From Haloprofundus halobius (GTDB lineage Archaea; Halobacteriota; Halobacteria; Halobacteriales; Haloferacaceae): a stretch of DNA of 64,000 nt. The notes below the pieces were generated by a model. It saw nothing but the letters and a program-made list of their open reading frames with translations. It was not told the DNA's origin and did not search any database. The translations under genes and the position numbers were made by a program. Below, one piece after another: positions 18,022-27,619 of this stretch; positions within the stretch are counted from its first letter, which is position 1; the number at the start of each line of letters is the position of its first letter. The stretch covers positions 806,001 through 870,000 of the forward strand of contig NZ_CP083666.1 of the NCBI RefSeq assembly GCF_020097835.1, written 5' to 3'.

Positions 18022-18066
18022 ATGAATCGACTCGTCGCCCGTACGGAGGTCTCACCGACGCGATGA
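18022..18066 (+). CDS. Possible 14-codon leader ORF overlapping elp3
   Basis: ATG at 18022 opens a 14-residue frame (MNRLVARTEVSPTR) whose TGA overlaps the elp3 ATG as ATGA. GGAGG is seen upstream of each ATG (18016-18020 and 18045-18049). It could be a translationally coupled leader peptide or simple chance; nothing else supports it. Confidence 0.25.
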   Translation: MNRLVARTEVSPTR

Positions 18067-19781
18067 GTACCGACAGTCCCGACGCTTCCGACGCGACCGA
18101 AGAAGAATCCGAAGCGTTCCGCGAAGCGTGCGCAGAGCTCGCCCGACGCATCGTCGACGGCGACATCGATCGCGACGACCTCGAATCCGAGAAGCTCAAG
18201 GTCTGTTCGGAGTTCTCCTCGCCGAAGGTACCGAAGAACACCGAGGTTCTCGAACACGCGCCGGACGAGCACCGCGACGACGTGAAGGAGGTCGTCCGAC
18301 GCAAACCCGTCCGGACGGCTTCGGGTGTCTCGCCGGTCGCCATAATGACCTCGCCGCAGATGTGCCCGCACGGGAAGTGTCTCTACTGCCCCGGCGGCCC
18401 GGCGTCGGAGTTCTCCTCCTCGCAGAGCTACACTGGCCACGAACCCGCCGCCGCCCGCGGGGTGCAGAACGACTACGACCCGTACGGGCAGGTGACGCTG
18501 CGACTCGAACAACTGCGCCACATCGGCCACCCCGTCGACAAGGTCGAACTCATCCTGATGGGCGGGACGATGACCGCCCGCAGCCACGACTACCAGGAGT
18601 GGTTCGTCAAGCGCGCGCTGGAGGCGATGAACGACTACGATCTGGATTCGAAGCCAGCGCCCGCCGAGGACCAGTCGTTCAAGCCCGACCCCGAAAATGT
18701 CGAGTTCCGCTACCTGGAAGACGTCATCGCCGAGAACGAAACTGGACAGATTCGAAACATCGGGACGACGTTCGAGACGAAGCCGGACTGGTGCGACCCC
18801 GAGCAGATCGACAGGATGCTCGATTTGGGCGCGACGAAGGTCGAGGTGGGCGTCCAGACCACCTACGAGCGCATCAACCGCGAGATGCATCGCGGTCACG
18901 GCAACCAAGCTTCCATCGACGCCAACCGCCGCCTGCGCGACGCGGCGTTCAAGGTCGGCTTCCACATGATGCCCGGCCAGCCGGGCATGACGCGCGACAT
19001 GTGCGTCGAGGACTTCCGTCAGCTGTTCGAGAACCCGCAGTGGCGACCCGACTACCTCAAAATCTACCCGACGCTCGTCGTCCGCGGCACGCGCATCTAC
19101 GACCGGTGGCGGCGCGACGACTACGACCCGCTGACGAACGAGGAGGCCGCCGACATCGTCGCAGAGGCGATGGGGAAGATTCCGAAGTACACGCGCCTCC
19201 AGCGCGTCCAGCGCGACATTCCCGCCGACTTCATCGACGCCGGAGTGTGGAAGTCGAACCTCCGGCAACTCGCCGAACAGCGAGCCGAGGAGAGAGGAAT
19301 CGAACTCCACGACATCCGCGCCCGCGAGGTGGGGATGAACGAGGCGACGCCTAACCAGCCGGACATCGAACTCGGCGTGCTTGAGTACGAGGCCGGCGGG
19401 GGTACCGAGAAGTTCATCAGCTTCGAAGATACGGAACAAAACCTCCTCGTCGGCTTCTGTCGCCTCCGCTTCCCGTCGTACTCGCACGCCGCTCCCGAGG
19501 GCGGCGCGGCACTCTCCGCGCGCGACCCCGTGCGCCGCGAACTCGAAGACGCGGCGCTCGTCCGCGAACTCCACGTCTACGGGAGCGAGGCGGGCATCGG
19601 CGCGGACGGCGAGTGGCAGCACAAGGGCTACGGGAAGAAGCTGCTCCGAGAGGCCGAAGATATCGCGGCCGACGCCGGCTTCGAGAAGATTTCGGTCATC
19701 TCCGGCATCGGCGTTCGCCAGTACTACCGCGAGAAGATGGGCTACCACCAGGACGGTCCGTACGTCAGCAAACGACTCTGA
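18063..19781 (+). CDS. elp3: Elp3-type tRNA uridine-34 modifying radical SAM/acetyltransferase
   Basis: A 572-residue Elp3 homolog. Radical SAM domain: iron-sulfur site MCPHGKCLYCPGG (Cx4Cx2C), GGTMTARSHDYQEWF and the VEVGVQTTYERINREMHRGH segment. C-terminal GNAT domain: LVRELHVYGSEAG and YGKKLLREAEDIA (acetyl-CoA pocket), then SGIGVRQYYREKMGYH. In archaea the single-protein Elp3 makes the cm5-type modification at uridine 34 of tRNA. Length and order match archaeal Elp3. Repeated GCGAGCGAAGCGAGCGAGCGC bases follow the stop codon. Confidence 0.95.
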   Translation: MSTDSPDASDATEEESEAFREACAELARRIVDGDIDRDDLESEKLKVCSEFSSPKVPKNTEVLEHAPDEHRDDVKEVVRRKPVRTASGVSPVAIMTSPQMCPHGKCLYCPGGPASEFSSSQSYTGHEPAAARGVQNDYDPYGQVTLRLEQLRHIGHPVDKVELILMGGTMTARSHDYQEWFVKRALEAMNDYDLDSKPAPAEDQSFKPDPENVEFRYLEDVIAENETGQIRNIGTTFETKPDWCDPEQIDRMLDLGATKVEVGVQTTYERINREMHRGHGNQASIDANRRLRDAAFKVGFHMMPGQPGMTRDMCVEDFRQLFENPQWRPDYLKIYPTLVVRGTRIYDRWRRDDYDPLTNEEAADIVAEAMGKIPKYTRLQRVQRDIPADFIDAGVWKSNLRQLAEQRAEERGIELHDIRAREVGMNEATPNQPDIELGVLEYEAGGGTEKFISFEDTEQNLLVGFCRLRFPSYSHAAPEGGAALSARDPVRRELEDAALVRELHVYGSEAGIGADGEWQHKGYGKKLLREAEDIAADAGFEKISVISGIGVRQYYREKMGYHQDGPYVSKRL

Positions 19782-21443: not shown

Positions 21444-21505
21444 AAACCGAAGCATCGCCTCGCCGGAACGACACGCCTTTTTTGCCGCCGCGGGAACCGA
21501 ACGGT

Positions 21506-23629
21506 ATGGACCCAAAGCGGGAGCTTTCGAGTATTGACCTCGCCGCGCTCGTGACCGAGCTTCGTCGGTACGAGGGTGCGAAGGTCGACAAGGCCTATCT
21601 GTACGGCGACGACCTCCTGCGACTCAAGATGCGAGATTTCGACCGCGGCCGCGTCGAACTGCTCGTGGAGGTCGGCGACGTGAAGCGAGCACACGTCGCC
21701 GCCGCCGAGCACGTGCCGGACGCCCCCGGCCGCCCGCCGAACTTCGCGAAGATGCTCCGTAACCGCCTGTCGGGCGCGGACTTCGCGGGCGTCGAACAGT
21801 TCGAGTTCGACCGGATTCTCGTCTTCACGTTCGAGCGACCCGACGCCGACACCGAACTCGTCGCTGAACTGTTCGGACAAGGCAACATCGCCGTCTTGGA
21901 CGAGAACCGCGAGGTCGTGAGCAGTCTCTCGACGGTTCGGCTCAAATCGCGGACCGTCGCGCCGGGCAGTCAGTACGAGTTCCCGAGTTCGCGGCTGAAC
22001 CCGCTGGACGTGCGCTACGAAGCGTTCGCGCACAAGATGGACGACTCCGACACCGACGTGGTGCGGACGCTGGCGACACAGTTGAATCTCGGCGGCCTCT
22101 ACGCCGAGGAGGTGTGCAGTCGCGCGGGCGTCGAGAAGACGCTCGACATCGCCGACGCCGGCGACGAGCAGTACGAGAAGCTGTACGAGGCGCTCGGACG
22201 ACTCCGCGAGCAACTCGCCAAGGGAGAGTTCGACCCACGCGTCTACCTCGAGGACGACGCCGTCGTCGACGTGACGCCGTTCCCGCTGGAGGAGCACGAA
22301 TCGGAGGGTCTCGACGCCGAGGCGTACGACTCGTTCAACGGCGCGCTCGACGAGTACTTCTACCGCCTCGACCGCAGCGACGACGACGGAGGCGGTGGGA
22401 GCGGGGCCGCCGGCGACAGCGGCAGACCTGACTTCGAGGAGGAGATAGAGAAGAAACAGCGCATCGTCGACCAGCAGGAGGGCGCTATCAGCGGCTTCGA
22501 CGAGCAAGCCCAGGAGGAACGAGAGCGCGCCGAGCAGGTGTACGCGCGCTACGACCTCGTCGACGAGATTCTGACGACGATTCGCGGCGCGCGGGAGCAA
22601 AGCGTCTCGTGGGACGAAATCGGCGAGAAGTTCGAGGAAGGAAGAGAACAGGGTATCGAGGCGGCCGAGGCCGTCCGCGGCGTCGACGGCGCGAACGGAA
22701 CCGTCACCGTCGCGCTCGACGACACGACCGTGACGCTCGACGTGTCGATGGGCGTCGAGAAGAACGCCGACCAGTTGTACAAGGAGGCCAAGCGCGTCGA
22801 GGAGAAGAAACAGGGCGCGCTCGAAGCCATCGAGGACACCCGTGAGCAACTGGAGGCGCTCGAACAACGCCGCGAGGAGTGGGAACGAGACGACGAGGGC
22901 GACTCGGACGAGGAAAGCGGGGACGACGAGCAAGAAGAGATCGACTGGCTCTCGCGGCAGTCGGTCCCCATCCGCCAACAGGACTACTGGTTCGAGCGGT
23001 TCCGCTGGTTCCGCACCAGCGACGACTTCCTCGTCATCGGCGGGCGCAACGCCGACCAGAACGAGGAACTGGTGAAGAAGTATCTCGGGAAGAGCGACCT
23101 GTTCTTCCACACGCAGGCCCGCGGCGGCCCGGTAACGATTCTGAAGGCGACCGGCCCGAGCGAACCCGCCCGCGACGTGGAGATCCCCGAACAGAGCAAG
23201 CAGGAGGCGGCGCAGTTCGCCGTCTCGTACGCCTCCGTCTGGAAGGAGGGGCGGTTCGCCGGGGACGCGTACATGGTGACGCACGACCAGGTGTCGAAGA
23301 CGCCCGAGAGCGGCGAGTACGTCGAGAAAGGGTCGTTCGTGGTTCGCGGCGACCGGACGTACTACCGCGACGTGAAAGCCGAAGTCGCCGTCGGCATCGC
23401 CTGCGAACCGGAGACGCGCGTCGTCGGCGGACCGCCGTCGGCCATCGAACCACAGGCCGAAACGTCGATTCGGGTCCGACCGGGGCGCTACGCCCAAAAC
23501 GACATGGCGCAGATGTGCTACCGCGAACTCCGCAAACGGTTCGCCGACCAGTCGTTCGTCAGAAAAGTCTCGAGCGCGGACAAAATTCAGGAGTTCCTCC
23601 CGCCGGGTGGAAGCGAGATGGTCGAGTAA
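21506..23629 (+). CDS. rqcH: Ribosome rescue protein RqcH (NEMF/Rqc2 family)
   Basis: A 707-residue protein with NFACT-N domain (about 1-230, including the conserved Asp-Arg pair D102-R103 in FEFDRILVF), an HhH-like middle region (NLGGLYAEEVCSRAG), long coiled coils (about 310-360 and 420-475) and the C-terminal NFACT-R domain (RTSDDFLVIGGRNADQNEELVKK, DLFFHTQARGGPV). The family binds 50S subunits with a stalled peptidyl-tRNA and, in bacteria, adds alanine tails; archaeal members are expected to act in the same way. ATG at 21506 matches the family start. Pelota is encoded 2.9 kb downstream on the same strand. Confidence 0.9.
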   Translation: MDPKRELSSIDLAALVTELRRYEGAKVDKAYLYGDDLLRLKMRDFDRGRVELLVEVGDVKRAHVAAAEHVPDAPGRPPNFAKMLRNRLSGADFAGVEQFEFDRILVFTFERPDADTELVAELFGQGNIAVLDENREVVSSLSTVRLKSRTVAPGSQYEFPSSRLNPLDVRYEAFAHKMDDSDTDVVRTLATQLNLGGLYAEEVCSRAGVEKTLDIADAGDEQYEKLYEALGRLREQLAKGEFDPRVYLEDDAVVDVTPFPLEEHESEGLDAEAYDSFNGALDEYFYRLDRSDDDGGGGSGAAGDSGRPDFEEEIEKKQRIVDQQEGAISGFDEQAQEERERAEQVYARYDLVDEILTTIRGAREQSVSWDEIGEKFEEGREQGIEAAEAVRGVDGANGTVTVALDDTTVTLDVSMGVEKNADQLYKEAKRVEEKKQGALEAIEDTREQLEALEQRREEWERDDEGDSDEESGDDEQEEIDWLSRQSVPIRQQDYWFERFRWFRTSDDFLVIGGRNADQNEELVKKYLGKSDLFFHTQARGGPVTILKATGPSEPARDVEIPEQSKQEAAQFAVSYASVWKEGRFAGDAYMVTHDQVSKTPESGEYVEKGSFVVRGDRTYYRDVKAEVAVGIACEPETRVVGGPPSAIEPQAETSIRVRPGRYAQNDMAQMCYRELRKRFADQSFVRKVSSADKIQEFLPPGGSEMVE

Positions 23630-23651
23630 TGTCGAAATAAACGCCCCGAAC

Positions 23652-23680
23652 GTCTGAATTTCAGACTTTCGCGAAGAAAG
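23652..23680. promoter_or_regulatory. Two adjacent inverted repeats between rqcH and the DUF4013 genes
   Basis: GTCTGAA-T-TTCAGAC (23652-23666) is a perfect 15-base palindrome and is overlapped by CTTTC-GCGAA-GAAAG (23666-23680). Either may be a terminator stem of rqcH or an operator for the DUF4013 genes; a TATA-like GGGCTAAATCC follows at about 23681. Confidence 0.45.
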
Positions 23681-23784
23681 GGCTAAATCCTCCGAATGAG
23701 TATCAAGAGGCTGAGAACTACACGAGGAGCGTCGCGTTCGTGACGAACGCCCGGAGCGACTCGCGGGGGTTCTCGGAAAACATC

Positions 23785-24480
23785 ATGCTTACCGAATCGC
23801 TCACATACGTACGAAACAGCGACGACTGGGTCAAGAACGTCCTCATCGGCGGAATACTCAGTCTGCTCGGCTTCCTCATCGTCCCGACGTTCCTCGTCAT
23901 CGGTTACCTGCTCCGCGTCGTCCGCAGTTCGATGCGTGGGGACGAAGAACCACCCGCGTTCGACGAGTGGGGTGAGATGGCCGTCGACGGGCTGAAAGGC
24001 TTTGTCATCGGCCTCGCCTACGGGTTCGTCCCGATCGTCCTGGCCATCGTTTTCGCCGTCCTCACGGGCGTAACCGCCAACGGCGGCAACATCGGCGTCG
24101 TCAGCGGCCTCTTCGGCCTCGTCGGCGTGCTCGTCGTCTTCGTGACGGCTCTGGCCGTCGCCTACGCGTTGCCCGCCGGATTGGCGAACTACGCCGAGAC
24201 TGGCCGGATGGGTGCCGCGTTCGACATCGGAATGCTCCGATCGACGCTCACCTCAGGGACCTACGCGACGGCGTGGCTGACGGCGTTCGCCGTCTTCCTC
24301 GTCGCCGGTCTCGTCGCGGGTGCGCTGAACGTCGTTCCGATACTCGGCACCGTCGTCGGCGTGTTCGTCACGTTCTACGCCGCCGTCGCGGGATACTATA
24401 TCATCGGTCGCGCGTGGGGCGAGATGCATCACGTCCCGATGCGCGACGACGAGATGCCCGAGGAACGCGCCGCCATCTGA
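23785..24480 (+). CDS. DUF4013 membrane protein (1 of 3)
   Basis: A 231-residue membrane protein with about six hydrophobic segments. The start MLTESLTYVRNSDDWVKNVLIGG is typical of DUF4013, followed by LLGFLIVPTFLVIGYLLRVVRSSMRGDEEPPAFDEWGEMAVDGLKG, the conserved loop. GRMGAAFD and SGTYATAWL are also family features. The upstream codons (from 23740) are dropped because this start matches the other two copies. Part of a tandem set of three. Function unknown; suggested roles in the literature of the family are not specific. Confidence 0.85.
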   Translation: MLTESLTYVRNSDDWVKNVLIGGILSLLGFLIVPTFLVIGYLLRVVRSSMRGDEEPPAFDEWGEMAVDGLKGFVIGLAYGFVPIVLAIVFAVLTGVTANGGNIGVVSGLFGLVGVLVVFVTALAVAYALPAGLANYAETGRMGAAFDIGMLRSTLTSGTYATAWLTAFAVFLVAGLVAGALNVVPILGTVVGVFVTFYAAVAGYYIIGRAWGEMHHVPMRDDEMPEERAAI

Positions 24481-24559
24481 CGGTCGTCGTCGGAAGACCG
24501 CTTTTTCGAGACTCGGTGTTGAGGTACGGTTATGTGTCGACGGTCCGACTGTGCGGTCG

Positions 24560-25534
24560 ATGCTTCGCGACGCGCTGAACGCTCCCGCTCGCACGACAGA
24601 CGCGGTTCAGACGCTGTTTTTGGGCGGGTTTCTGACGTTGCTGGCGTTCTTGCTGCCGCTGGGGTGGCTGACGACGGTGGCGACCGTCCCGTTTCTCGTC
24701 GTCGCGCTTCCGGTGGTGTTTCTCCCGTCGTTGCTGCTCCGGGGGTACTACGTTCGGACGATGCAGGCGGGCCTTCGCGGCGCGGAGCGTGCGCCGTCGT
24801 TCGTCCGGTGGGGAGAACTGGTCCGAGACGGACTCCGTTCGTATTTCGTCGCGTTCATCTATCTGGTCCCTGTCATCGTGTTGTGGACACTCGTCGGCGT
24901 GACGGCAGTAGCGGTCGAACTGCGCCCCGTCGGCGGTCCGACCGGGTCGATGCTCGTGACGCTCTCGGCGGCGTCCGCGACGCTCCTGAGCGGACTCTAC
25001 CTTCCAGTTTTCGCGTACCTCTTTCCCGCCGCGCTCGTGACGTACGCCGCGACCGGGCGGCTCACCGCTGCGTTCGCCCCGCGGGCAGTCAGCCGAACCC
25101 TCCTCGACGGCGGATACGCGAAGGGGTGGGTGCTAGCGAGCGGTGTGCTCGTCGTCGCGCTGGCGGTCGGGGCTCCGACGTCGTTGTTTCTCGTCGGCGT
25201 GTTCGTCGTCTTCTACCTCCAGACCGTCGTTCACTCGGTGTACGGACTGGCGGCGCGGACGGCGCTCGGAGCGGAACTGGACGACGACGGACGGGTGCGC
25301 GTCGAACGAGCACAGCGCCGCCCGGAGGTCGAGGCGTCGGTTCAGGTCGGGCGGAGTGTCGGTCTCACCGACGGACGCGGAAGCGAGACCGACTCACCGG
25401 CGGACGGCGAAATTCGGGACGAGACCGAAGTCGGTGCCGACCGGAACGACGACGCGGGCGGCGACGACAATCGGAGCGACCGAGATGGACCCGATGACCG
25501 ACGTTTCGAGCGTGGGGAACGCGGAGAGCAGTGA
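24560..25534 (+). CDS. DUF4013 membrane protein (2 of 3), with acidic C-terminal extension
   Basis: A 324-residue copy of the same family: MLRDALNAPARTTDAVQTLFLGG, then loop RGAERAPSFVRWGELVRDGLRSY and GRLTAAFAP. About six to seven hydrophobic segments occupy residues 15-235. The last 90 residues are hydrophilic, rich in Asp, Glu, Arg and Gly, and absent from the other two copies. ATG at 24560 is chosen; a GTG at 24551 is three codons upstream. Confidence 0.8.
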   Translation: MLRDALNAPARTTDAVQTLFLGGFLTLLAFLLPLGWLTTVATVPFLVVALPVVFLPSLLLRGYYVRTMQAGLRGAERAPSFVRWGELVRDGLRSYFVAFIYLVPVIVLWTLVGVTAVAVELRPVGGPTGSMLVTLSAASATLLSGLYLPVFAYLFPAALVTYAATGRLTAAFAPRAVSRTLLDGGYAKGWVLASGVLVVALAVGAPTSLFLVGVFVVFYLQTVVHSVYGLAARTALGAELDDDGRVRVERAQRRPEVEASVQVGRSVGLTDGRGSETDSPADGEIRDETEVGADRNDDAGGDDNRSDRDGPDDRRFERGERGEQ

Positions 25535-25594
25535 GAGCGTTGCGACCAGCGCGGAGCGATACGATGAAACGACTCGCCCCGAAACGACGAGCGC

Positions 25595-26290
25595 ATGCTC
25601 CGGGAGTCGATTCGGTATCCGTTCGGCGGTGACGACGCCGCGGAGACGCTAATCGTCGGCGGTGGACTCCACGTCGCCACCGCCTTCGTCCCGCTGGTCC
25701 CGCTGGTGTTCGTTCTCGGGTATCTCGTCCGGGTGCTCGACGAGGCGAGCAGCGGCGGTTCGGCGGCGCTCAGAGACGGAACGCCGCCAACGTTCGACGA
25801 CCTCCGGGGACTCACAGCGGACGGAGTGAAAGCGACGCTGGTGGTCGGACTCTACTCGGCCGGACCGCTCGCCGTGCTGCTCGTGACGGTCGGCGGGGCG
25901 AGCGGTCTCTCGGCCGGAGCGCTGACGGGGACGGCGAGTCTCGGCGTTCTCGTCGGGTCGACGGCGGCGTTGTTCGCTGCGCTCGGCGTCGCGTACCTCC
26001 TCCCGGCGGCGCTCGTCGGATACGCGCAGTCGCGCCGCTTCCGCGCGGCGTTCGACCGGTCGACGCTTCGGGCGGCCACCGACGCTCGGTACTTCGTCGC
26101 CGTCGTCGCCGCCGGTGGACTTCTGAGCGCCGCCGCGGTAGTGGTGTCGATGGGCGCACCGCGGACGCTCCCCCGGTTCGTGGGTTTCTTCGTGCTGTTC
26201 TACGCTGAGGTCGCGGCGGCGGCGCTGGTCGGCCACGTCTGCGGCGAGAGCGTCCCGACGGAGCGGCCGGAACGGTCGGGGTCGGCGTAG
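25595..26290 (+). CDS. DUF4013 membrane protein (3 of 3)
   Basis: A 231-residue third copy: MLRESIRYPFGGDDAAETLIVGG, loop GTPPTFDDLRGLTADGVKATLVVGLYS, and RRFRAAFDRSTL. About six hydrophobic segments. Its N-terminal motif is closest to copy 1 (both keep RES..YP/TYVR plus Asp-Asp). The gap after copy 2 is 60 bases, so the genes may share a transcript. Next is Pelota after about 260 bases with no gene in them. Confidence 0.8.
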   Translation: MLRESIRYPFGGDDAAETLIVGGGLHVATAFVPLVPLVFVLGYLVRVLDEASSGGSAALRDGTPPTFDDLRGLTADGVKATLVVGLYSAGPLAVLLVTVGGASGLSAGALTGTASLGVLVGSTAALFAALGVAYLLPAALVGYAQSRRFRAAFDRSTLRAATDARYFVAVVAAGGLLSAAAVVVSMGAPRTLPRFVGFFVLFYAEVAAAALVGHVCGESVPTERPERSGSA

Positions 26291-26551
26291 TTGCACCGCT
26301 GATGTGGCTGAATGGCGAACTGGCGGTCGTCTCCTCTCCTGCGGGCGGCGACCGCGCTACAGCCTCGGCCTCGCTCCGAGCGAAATCGGAGCGACCCGCA
26401 GTCAATCTTCAACGCACGGGCGGGAGTGGCTCCGTCATCCGGGATAAGGGTTCGTCGTGTTCTCTCGTGGGGGAGCGTCGCGGGAGTCGGTCTGGTGTCG
26501 TCGACTACGGCGATGCAAAGCCACCTTAACCCCCGAGAGCGAGAGTCGAGT

Positions 26552-27619
26552 ATGCGAATCGCAGGCCGTGGTCGCGGCGAGGAGGGGCGCGAGCGCATCA
26601 CGCTCGTCCCCGAGAACGTCGACGACCTCTGGCATCTCTCGTACGTGCTCGAACCCGGTGACCACGTCTCCGGCGACACGACCCGCCGCATCCAGCGTGA
26701 CGACGACCAGATGCGCGACACCGGCGGCGAGCGCGAACACCTCCACATCACCCTCGAAGTCGAGGACGTGGAGTTCGCCCGCTTCGCCAACCGACTGCGC
26801 GTCAGCGGCGTCATCGTCGGTTGTTCCCGCGAGGACCAACTCGGCCACCACCACACGCTCAACGTCGAGGAGCGCGGCGAGATAACCATCGAGAAACGGT
26901 TCAAACCGGACCAGATCGACCGCATCGAGGAGGCCGAGCGCGCCACCGAGAACCCCGACGTGGTCATCGCTACCGTCGAGGAGGGCGAGGCGTACATCCA
27001 CACCGTCGCCCAGTACGGCACCGAGGAGTACGCATCGTTTACGGCTCCGACGGGGAAGGGTGAGTACGCCCGCCCGCGGAGCGAACTGTTCGACGAACTC
27101 GGGTCGGCGCTGTCGCACGTCGACGCCGACACCGTCATCCTGGCTGGACCGGGTTTCACGAAGCAGGACGCCCGCGACCACATCGCCGACAACTACCCCG
27201 AGGTGGCCGAGAAGCTGACCACCGTCGACACCGCGAGCGTCGGGGACCGCGGCGTCCACGAAGTGTTGAAGCGCGGCGCGGTCGACGACGTACAGAAGGA
27301 GACGCGCATCGCCCGCGAGGCCGAGCGCATCGACGACCTGATGGAGCGAATCGCCGAGGGCGCGAAGGCCGCCTACGGCGTCGAACAGGTGGCGCAGGCC
27401 GCGGAGTTCGGCGCGGTCGAGGAGCTCCTAATTTTGGACTCCCGCCTGCGCGACGAGCGACAGGGCCGCGGCGACTGGGAGCGCGACGTCAACGAGATAA
27501 TCGAGACGGTCGAGCAGAAAGGCGGCGAGGTGACCGTCTTCTCCGCAGAGTTTCAACCGGGCCAGCAGTTGAAAAACCTCGGCGGCATCGCGGCGCTCTT
27601 GCGGTACCGGTTGGAGTAA
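26552..27619 (+). CDS. pelA: mRNA surveillance protein Pelota
   Basis: A 355-residue Pelota (Dom34) homolog. The N-terminal domain (about 1-130) is the Sm-like RNA-binding domain starting [27 protein letters not shown]; the middle and C-terminal domains resemble eRF1 domains 2 and 3 ([32 protein letters not shown]). There is no GGQ, so it does not hydrolyse peptidyl-tRNA. It works with aEF1A or aABCE1 to split stalled ribosomes. Its place downstream of rqcH makes a ribosome-rescue cluster. The C-terminal part ([23 protein letters not shown]) is full length. Confidence 0.92.

Follow-up and report, generated by a model that had tools for sequence, protein, structure and literature searches.

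What has brought several DUF4013 membrane proteins into the space between two genes of ribosome rescue, and do these proteins take part in rescue themselves? The window, i.e., the whole 64-kb stretch of haloarchaeal DNA analyzed here, carries rqcH and pelA on one strand (+), with 2.9 kb from the rqcH stop to the pelA start. The earlier note on this DNA had pointed out this proximity and named three DUF4013 genes as the only ones in the interval. Both observations hold, and all three genes score above the PF13197 gathering score (26.9 bits). The note had gone on to propose that the three proteins work in the rescue of ribosomes stalled on membrane-protein insertion, and it is this functional claim that needs to be weighed.

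Genes of the rqcH–pelA locus

The rqcH gene (21506..23629, + strand) encodes a full-length archaeal NEMF/Rqc2 homologue with NFACT domains (PF05833, PF05670), matching NF041120 with 831.9 bits over residues 8–705, above the equivalog cut-off of 400 bits. By analogy with eukaryotic and bacterial homologues (bacterial RqcH is reviewed in PMC8012679), archaeal RqcH would tail nascent chains on the 50S subunit. At the other end, pelA (26552..27619, +) encodes a full-length archaeal Pelota/Dom34 with three eRF1-like domains (PF03463, PF03464, PF03465) and 297.8 bits to TIGR00111, for which the equivalog cut-off is 177.65 bits; the protein shows no difference from this family, and it is the neighborhood alone that is unusual. 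The usual neighbor 5' of rqcH, elp3 (18063..19781, +; TIGR01211, 748 bits), is also present, and the order on the + strand is elp3, a SHOCT-domain gene, a DUF4397 gene, rqcH, the DUF4013 genes D1, D2, and D3, and pelA. The window gave no matches in searches against Rfam or for tRNAs.

D1 (23785..24480, +; PF13197, 142.3 bits) is the first gene after rqcH and belongs to clade A of the DUF4013 tree; D2 (24560..25534, +; 96.1 bits) belongs to the tail-bearing clade B, described below; and D3 (25595..26290, +; 84.8 bits), assigned by score and clade position, lies directly 5' of pelA. Their probable starts are ATG codons at 23785, 24560, and 25595, respectively, with an alternative GTG start possible for D1 upstream, at 23740. 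The three proteins share ~30–36% pairwise identity and, besides their gathering-level scores, the conserved P/G/Y positions of the family. The genome has eight DUF4013 genes, three here and five elsewhere. Two very divergent genes form a tandem with touching ends at a distant locus of the same genome (L194; G000:C1:478742-480174) and have the longest branches of the tree.

A probably ancestral gene pair and its interruption in haloarchaea

We compared 116 haloarchaeal genomes and 37 DUF4013-bearing genomes from other classes of the phylum. RqcH and Pelota were both found in 116/116 haloarchaeal genomes, and their genes are linked (≤15 kb) in 77 of them, with rqcH first and on the same strand in every case (77/77). 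Coordinate comparison in the other classes placed rqcH immediately 5' of pelA, with nothing between and gaps of ≤ ~230 bases, in 30 of the 37 genomes; similarly, eight haloarchaeal genomes have the two genes adjacent, with 50–110 bases between them. Thus, the adjacent rqcH–pelA arrangement is most simply read as the ancestral pair of the phylum, and DUF4013 as a probable insertion in the haloarchaeal lineage. We found no open-access paper on haloarchaeal RqcH or on a link between archaeal rqcH and pelA. At one haloarchaeal locus (L096; G044:C23:19969-20906), pelota matches as two separate pieces, the better of which scores under the family cut-off; either the gene is broken or the assembly is in error there.

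The earlier note had suggested counting the genomes in which DUF4013 adjoins rqcH or pelA. Direct adjacency occurs in 59/116 haloarchaeal genomes, spanning 20/46 genera and 7/9 families; this count includes genomes in which rqcH and pelA are apart, and its cases are not independent events, being shared by descent among related genomes. Among the 77 linked genomes, DUF4013 lies between the two genes in 39 (one copy in 19, two in 15, and three in 5) and is absent from the interval in 38. The arrangement is also seen in named genomes of Haloprofundus, Halogranum, Haloferax, Salinigranum, Halobium (four copies), Halogeometricum, Halobellus, Halohasta, Haladaptatus, Halalkalicoccus, Halorubellus, and Natronocalculus. 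In the Haloferax species sampled, the rqcH–pelA interval contains two DUF4013 genes. All intervening DUF4013 genes are co-directional with the pair (64/64), whereas other inserted genes run both ways (34 with, 52 against). For instance, at loci of one family (f4; among them L122, L150, and L177), unrelated and mostly opposite-strand genes, including ABC-transporter-like ones, replace DUF4013 between rqcH and pelA. In 17 further genomes, DUF4013 accompanies pelA while rqcH is elsewhere; as these belong to only two genera, they represent few independent events. Linkage of the pair with intervening DUF4013 recurs across haloarchaea and exceeds chance. At the same time, 21/116 haloarchaeal genomes have no detectable DUF4013, and both rescue genes are kept in all 21.

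Conserved order and strand, as found in all 77 linked genomes and for all 64 intervening DUF4013 genes, would be compatible with an rqcH–DUF4013–pelA operon. A simple operon nevertheless seems the less likely reading, since promoter-like signals suggest a separate start for pelA. A T-rich promoter-like element (21477..21483, +) lies ~27 bases 5' of rqcH, and a TTAA element (26526..26529, +) lies 23–26 bases 5' of pelA. Across the 116 genomes, the A+T fraction before rqcH peaks at position −27 (0.67, as compared to ~0.15–0.23 just downstream). The same peak precedes pelA even where the gene follows DUF4013 (0.66 versus 0.21 just downstream, n = 54), which makes a dedicated pelA promoter probable. 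Judged from base composition alone, rqcH and pelA thus appear to have separate promoters, and, if so, nothing requires the DUF4013 genes to function in rescue.

Beyond the haloarchaeal locus, the 37 genomes sampled from other classes contain no DUF4013 gene ≤15 kb from pelota, and in the genome studied here no recognized rescue gene accompanies five of the eight copies. Other DUF4013 copies adjoin metabolic genes. In other classes, two to four DUF4013 genes in tandem stand beside purH (L222, L223, L228, L215, and L221), most of these arrays also beside leuA/ilv-type genes, with dnaK nearby. These arrays are a second conserved context of the family, unrelated to rescue. A general association of DUF4013 with rescue was therefore rejected outside haloarchaea, where the arrays are flanked by purH and leuA/ilv-type genes in the vicinity of dnaK; the lack of association among copies elsewhere, which the earlier note had named as the finding that would speak against its idea, is largely what we observed. 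In the open-access literature, we found no paper on DUF4013 function, the sole text match for DUF4013 being a cotton paper.

A locus-specific clade with an invariant tail motif

We built a tree from 109 haloarchaeal DUF4013 sequences, a quick reconstruction with no bootstraps and with some long branches. It contains a 47-row clade (SH-aLRT 96), 46 rows of which are locus copies. Nested within it, clade B comprises 27 rows (SH-aLRT 95), includes D2, and consists entirely of genes beside pelA or rqcH (27/27). A 13-row clade likewise contains locus copies only, and a third clade, to which D1 belongs, mixes locus and non-locus copies. The topology is consistent with an old insertion, subsequent duplication, and numerous losses. 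On a quick species tree from RqcH+Pelota, parsimony counts 13 changes, with several apparent gains. Repeated independent recruitment was nevertheless set aside, since locus copies from different families group together in the DUF4013 tree, which makes one old insertion with many losses at least as likely.

Clade-B proteins extend into a hydrophilic C-terminal tail of roughly 70–144 residues. In D2, this tail contains the element ASVQVGRSV (25334..25360, +), corresponding to the consensus E..[PA]x[VI]Q[TV]GRxV, in which Q, G, and R are invariant in all 27 members while most flanking tail columns are unconserved. Shuffled tails would be expected to yield 0.1 proteins with Q[TV]GR, versus 27 seen. 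The DNA pattern of the motif has a single match in the whole genome, namely D2. Across the 116 genomes, it has ~78 matches, of which 25 are clade-B genes by position and 53 are others; as a reversed-pattern control gives ~40, the pattern is near chance level outside clade-B genes. The non-DUF4013 genes called at the loci contained no QxGR motif. Outside Haloprofundus, most genera combine QxGR with FxWG near the C-terminus. FxWG was ruled out as a general haloarchaeal tail signal, since among the 1221 proteins called at the loci it occurs almost exclusively in the tails of clade-B DUF4013 proteins. A different repeated element, PA[VI]xR[VIL], occurs in the locus DUF4013 tails of one genus (g28 of family f3; L086, L087, L102, and L171) and may be a diverged version of QxGR.

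The structural model of a relative predicts the tail, including the motif, to be disordered, with low confidence exactly there. Docking peptides commonly show this signature, a short invariant motif within a disordered segment. Positive loop charges suggest that the tail is cytosolic, and we infer both this location and a role in binding for clade-B tails. Taken together, these features suggest that D2 is a membrane-anchored adaptor with one soluble partner, RqcH and Pelota being candidates. Of all the features, only the tail motif predicts a dedicated soluble partner, without indicating which one. The QxGR (usually with FxWG) tail is what clade B adds to the DUF4013 family, and neither other clades nor family members from other classes showed it. 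This locus-only clade with its invariant motif is new here and previously unreported.

Explanations for the locus and their meaning

The explanation that we prefer, and to which we give an even chance, is that an ancestral rqcH–pelA pair was split by a duplicating DUF4013 gene, that D2 is a membrane adaptor docking through its tail, and that a role in rescue is not needed. The starting point would be the adjacent pair, ancestral in the phylum. In haloarchaea, DUF4013, a general archaeal membrane-protein family, would have been inserted between rqcH and pelA and then duplicated; the inheritance of locus-specific clades is visible in the sequences, as is the long hydrophilic tail of clade B with its invariant QxGR. 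Each DUF4013 protein would be a small polytopic membrane protein, and D2 a membrane-anchored adaptor whose motif docks one soluble partner, be it RqcH, Pelota, or something unrelated. The genes may have ended up in a block of synteny that is slow to decay. Against this explanation, complete co-directionality and the retention of DUF4013 with pelA in 17 genomes exceed what purely neutral insertion would call for, and more than one insertion event would also be compatible with parsimony on the quick species tree, which allows several.

Other genes of the block bear on how much adjacency can mean. The gene elp3, the third translation-related gene of the rqcH–pelA block, lies ≤3 genes 5' of rqcH on the same strand in 56/116 haloarchaeal genomes (19 genera), and 34 genomes (17 genera) retain an opposite-strand metallo-beta-lactamase gene 3' of pelA. 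Both are retained about as widely as DUF4013, and adjacency by itself is weak evidence at this locus. An ornithine-cyclodeaminase-like gene is also retained within one family. Such neighbors, the separate promoter-like signals of rqcH and pelA, and the metabolic surroundings of other DUF4013 copies are what one would expect if the locus copies were merely hitchhiking in a slowly decaying synteny block while doing an unrelated membrane job, with the tail motif, if functional, binding an unrelated protein. We regard this as a possible but doubtful account of the whole, since the DUF4013 genes are co-directional in 64/64 cases and form tree clades confined to the locus.

The same strict co-directionality and locus-only clades, together with a long shared inheritance at a single locus, persistence next to pelA in genomes with rqcH elsewhere, and a tail motif confined to these proteins, could instead mean that the locus DUF4013 proteins are the membrane arm of archaeal ribosome-associated quality control, where chains stalled in membrane insertion are tailed or cleared; the D2 tail would then recruit Pelota, RqcH, or the split 50S subunit to the membrane. 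We consider this unlikely. The interval lacks DUF4013 in 38/77 linked genomes, the family is undetectable in 21/116, and the association does not extend outside haloarchaea. Moreover, clade-B D2 is much faster-evolving than pelota (32–41% versus 74–84% identity between genera), the motif was not found in the Haloferax locus copies, and the proteins have no fold match (see below). That clade-B D2 specifically is a quality-control adaptor, its QxGR/FxWG tail binding Pelota, RqcH, or the stalled 50S subunit for rescue at the membrane, seems to us rather improbable as well.

Polytopic membrane proteins beside translation genes call to mind the Oxa1/YidC/Get1/EMC3 insertases and the Sec translocon, but DUF4013 shares with them only its polytopic nature. 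The AlphaFold model of D1, with long helices and a pLDDT of 94.9, has no match with E ≤ 0.001 among PDB structures or in a viral structure library; the weak PDB fold matches listed for it include no insertase or translocon, and a DUF4013 sequence search of the PDB gave no convincing match. An insertase or translocon role is thus left without structural support, and we dismiss insertases or translocon parts of this kind as highly improbable.

Of the proposed link between DUF4013 and rescue at stalled membrane insertion, the genomic context stands in haloarchaea, with adjacency in about half of the genomes and clades restricted to the locus. The functional part fares poorly: haloarchaea without DUF4013 keep both rescue genes, other classes show no linkage (0/37), and no insertase or translocon fold is recognizable. 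A DUF4013 role in ribosome rescue is possible, and several sequence-based tests go against it.

The rqcH–pelA pair itself ties nascent-chain tailing and ribosome splitting into one unit. For DUF4013, a locus-only clade with a unique tail motif offers a precise peptide for a partner search. Should the partner be RqcH, Pelota, or the ribosome, D2 would mark a membrane arm of archaeal quality control; should it be another protein, the result would still be the first function for a DUF4013 protein.
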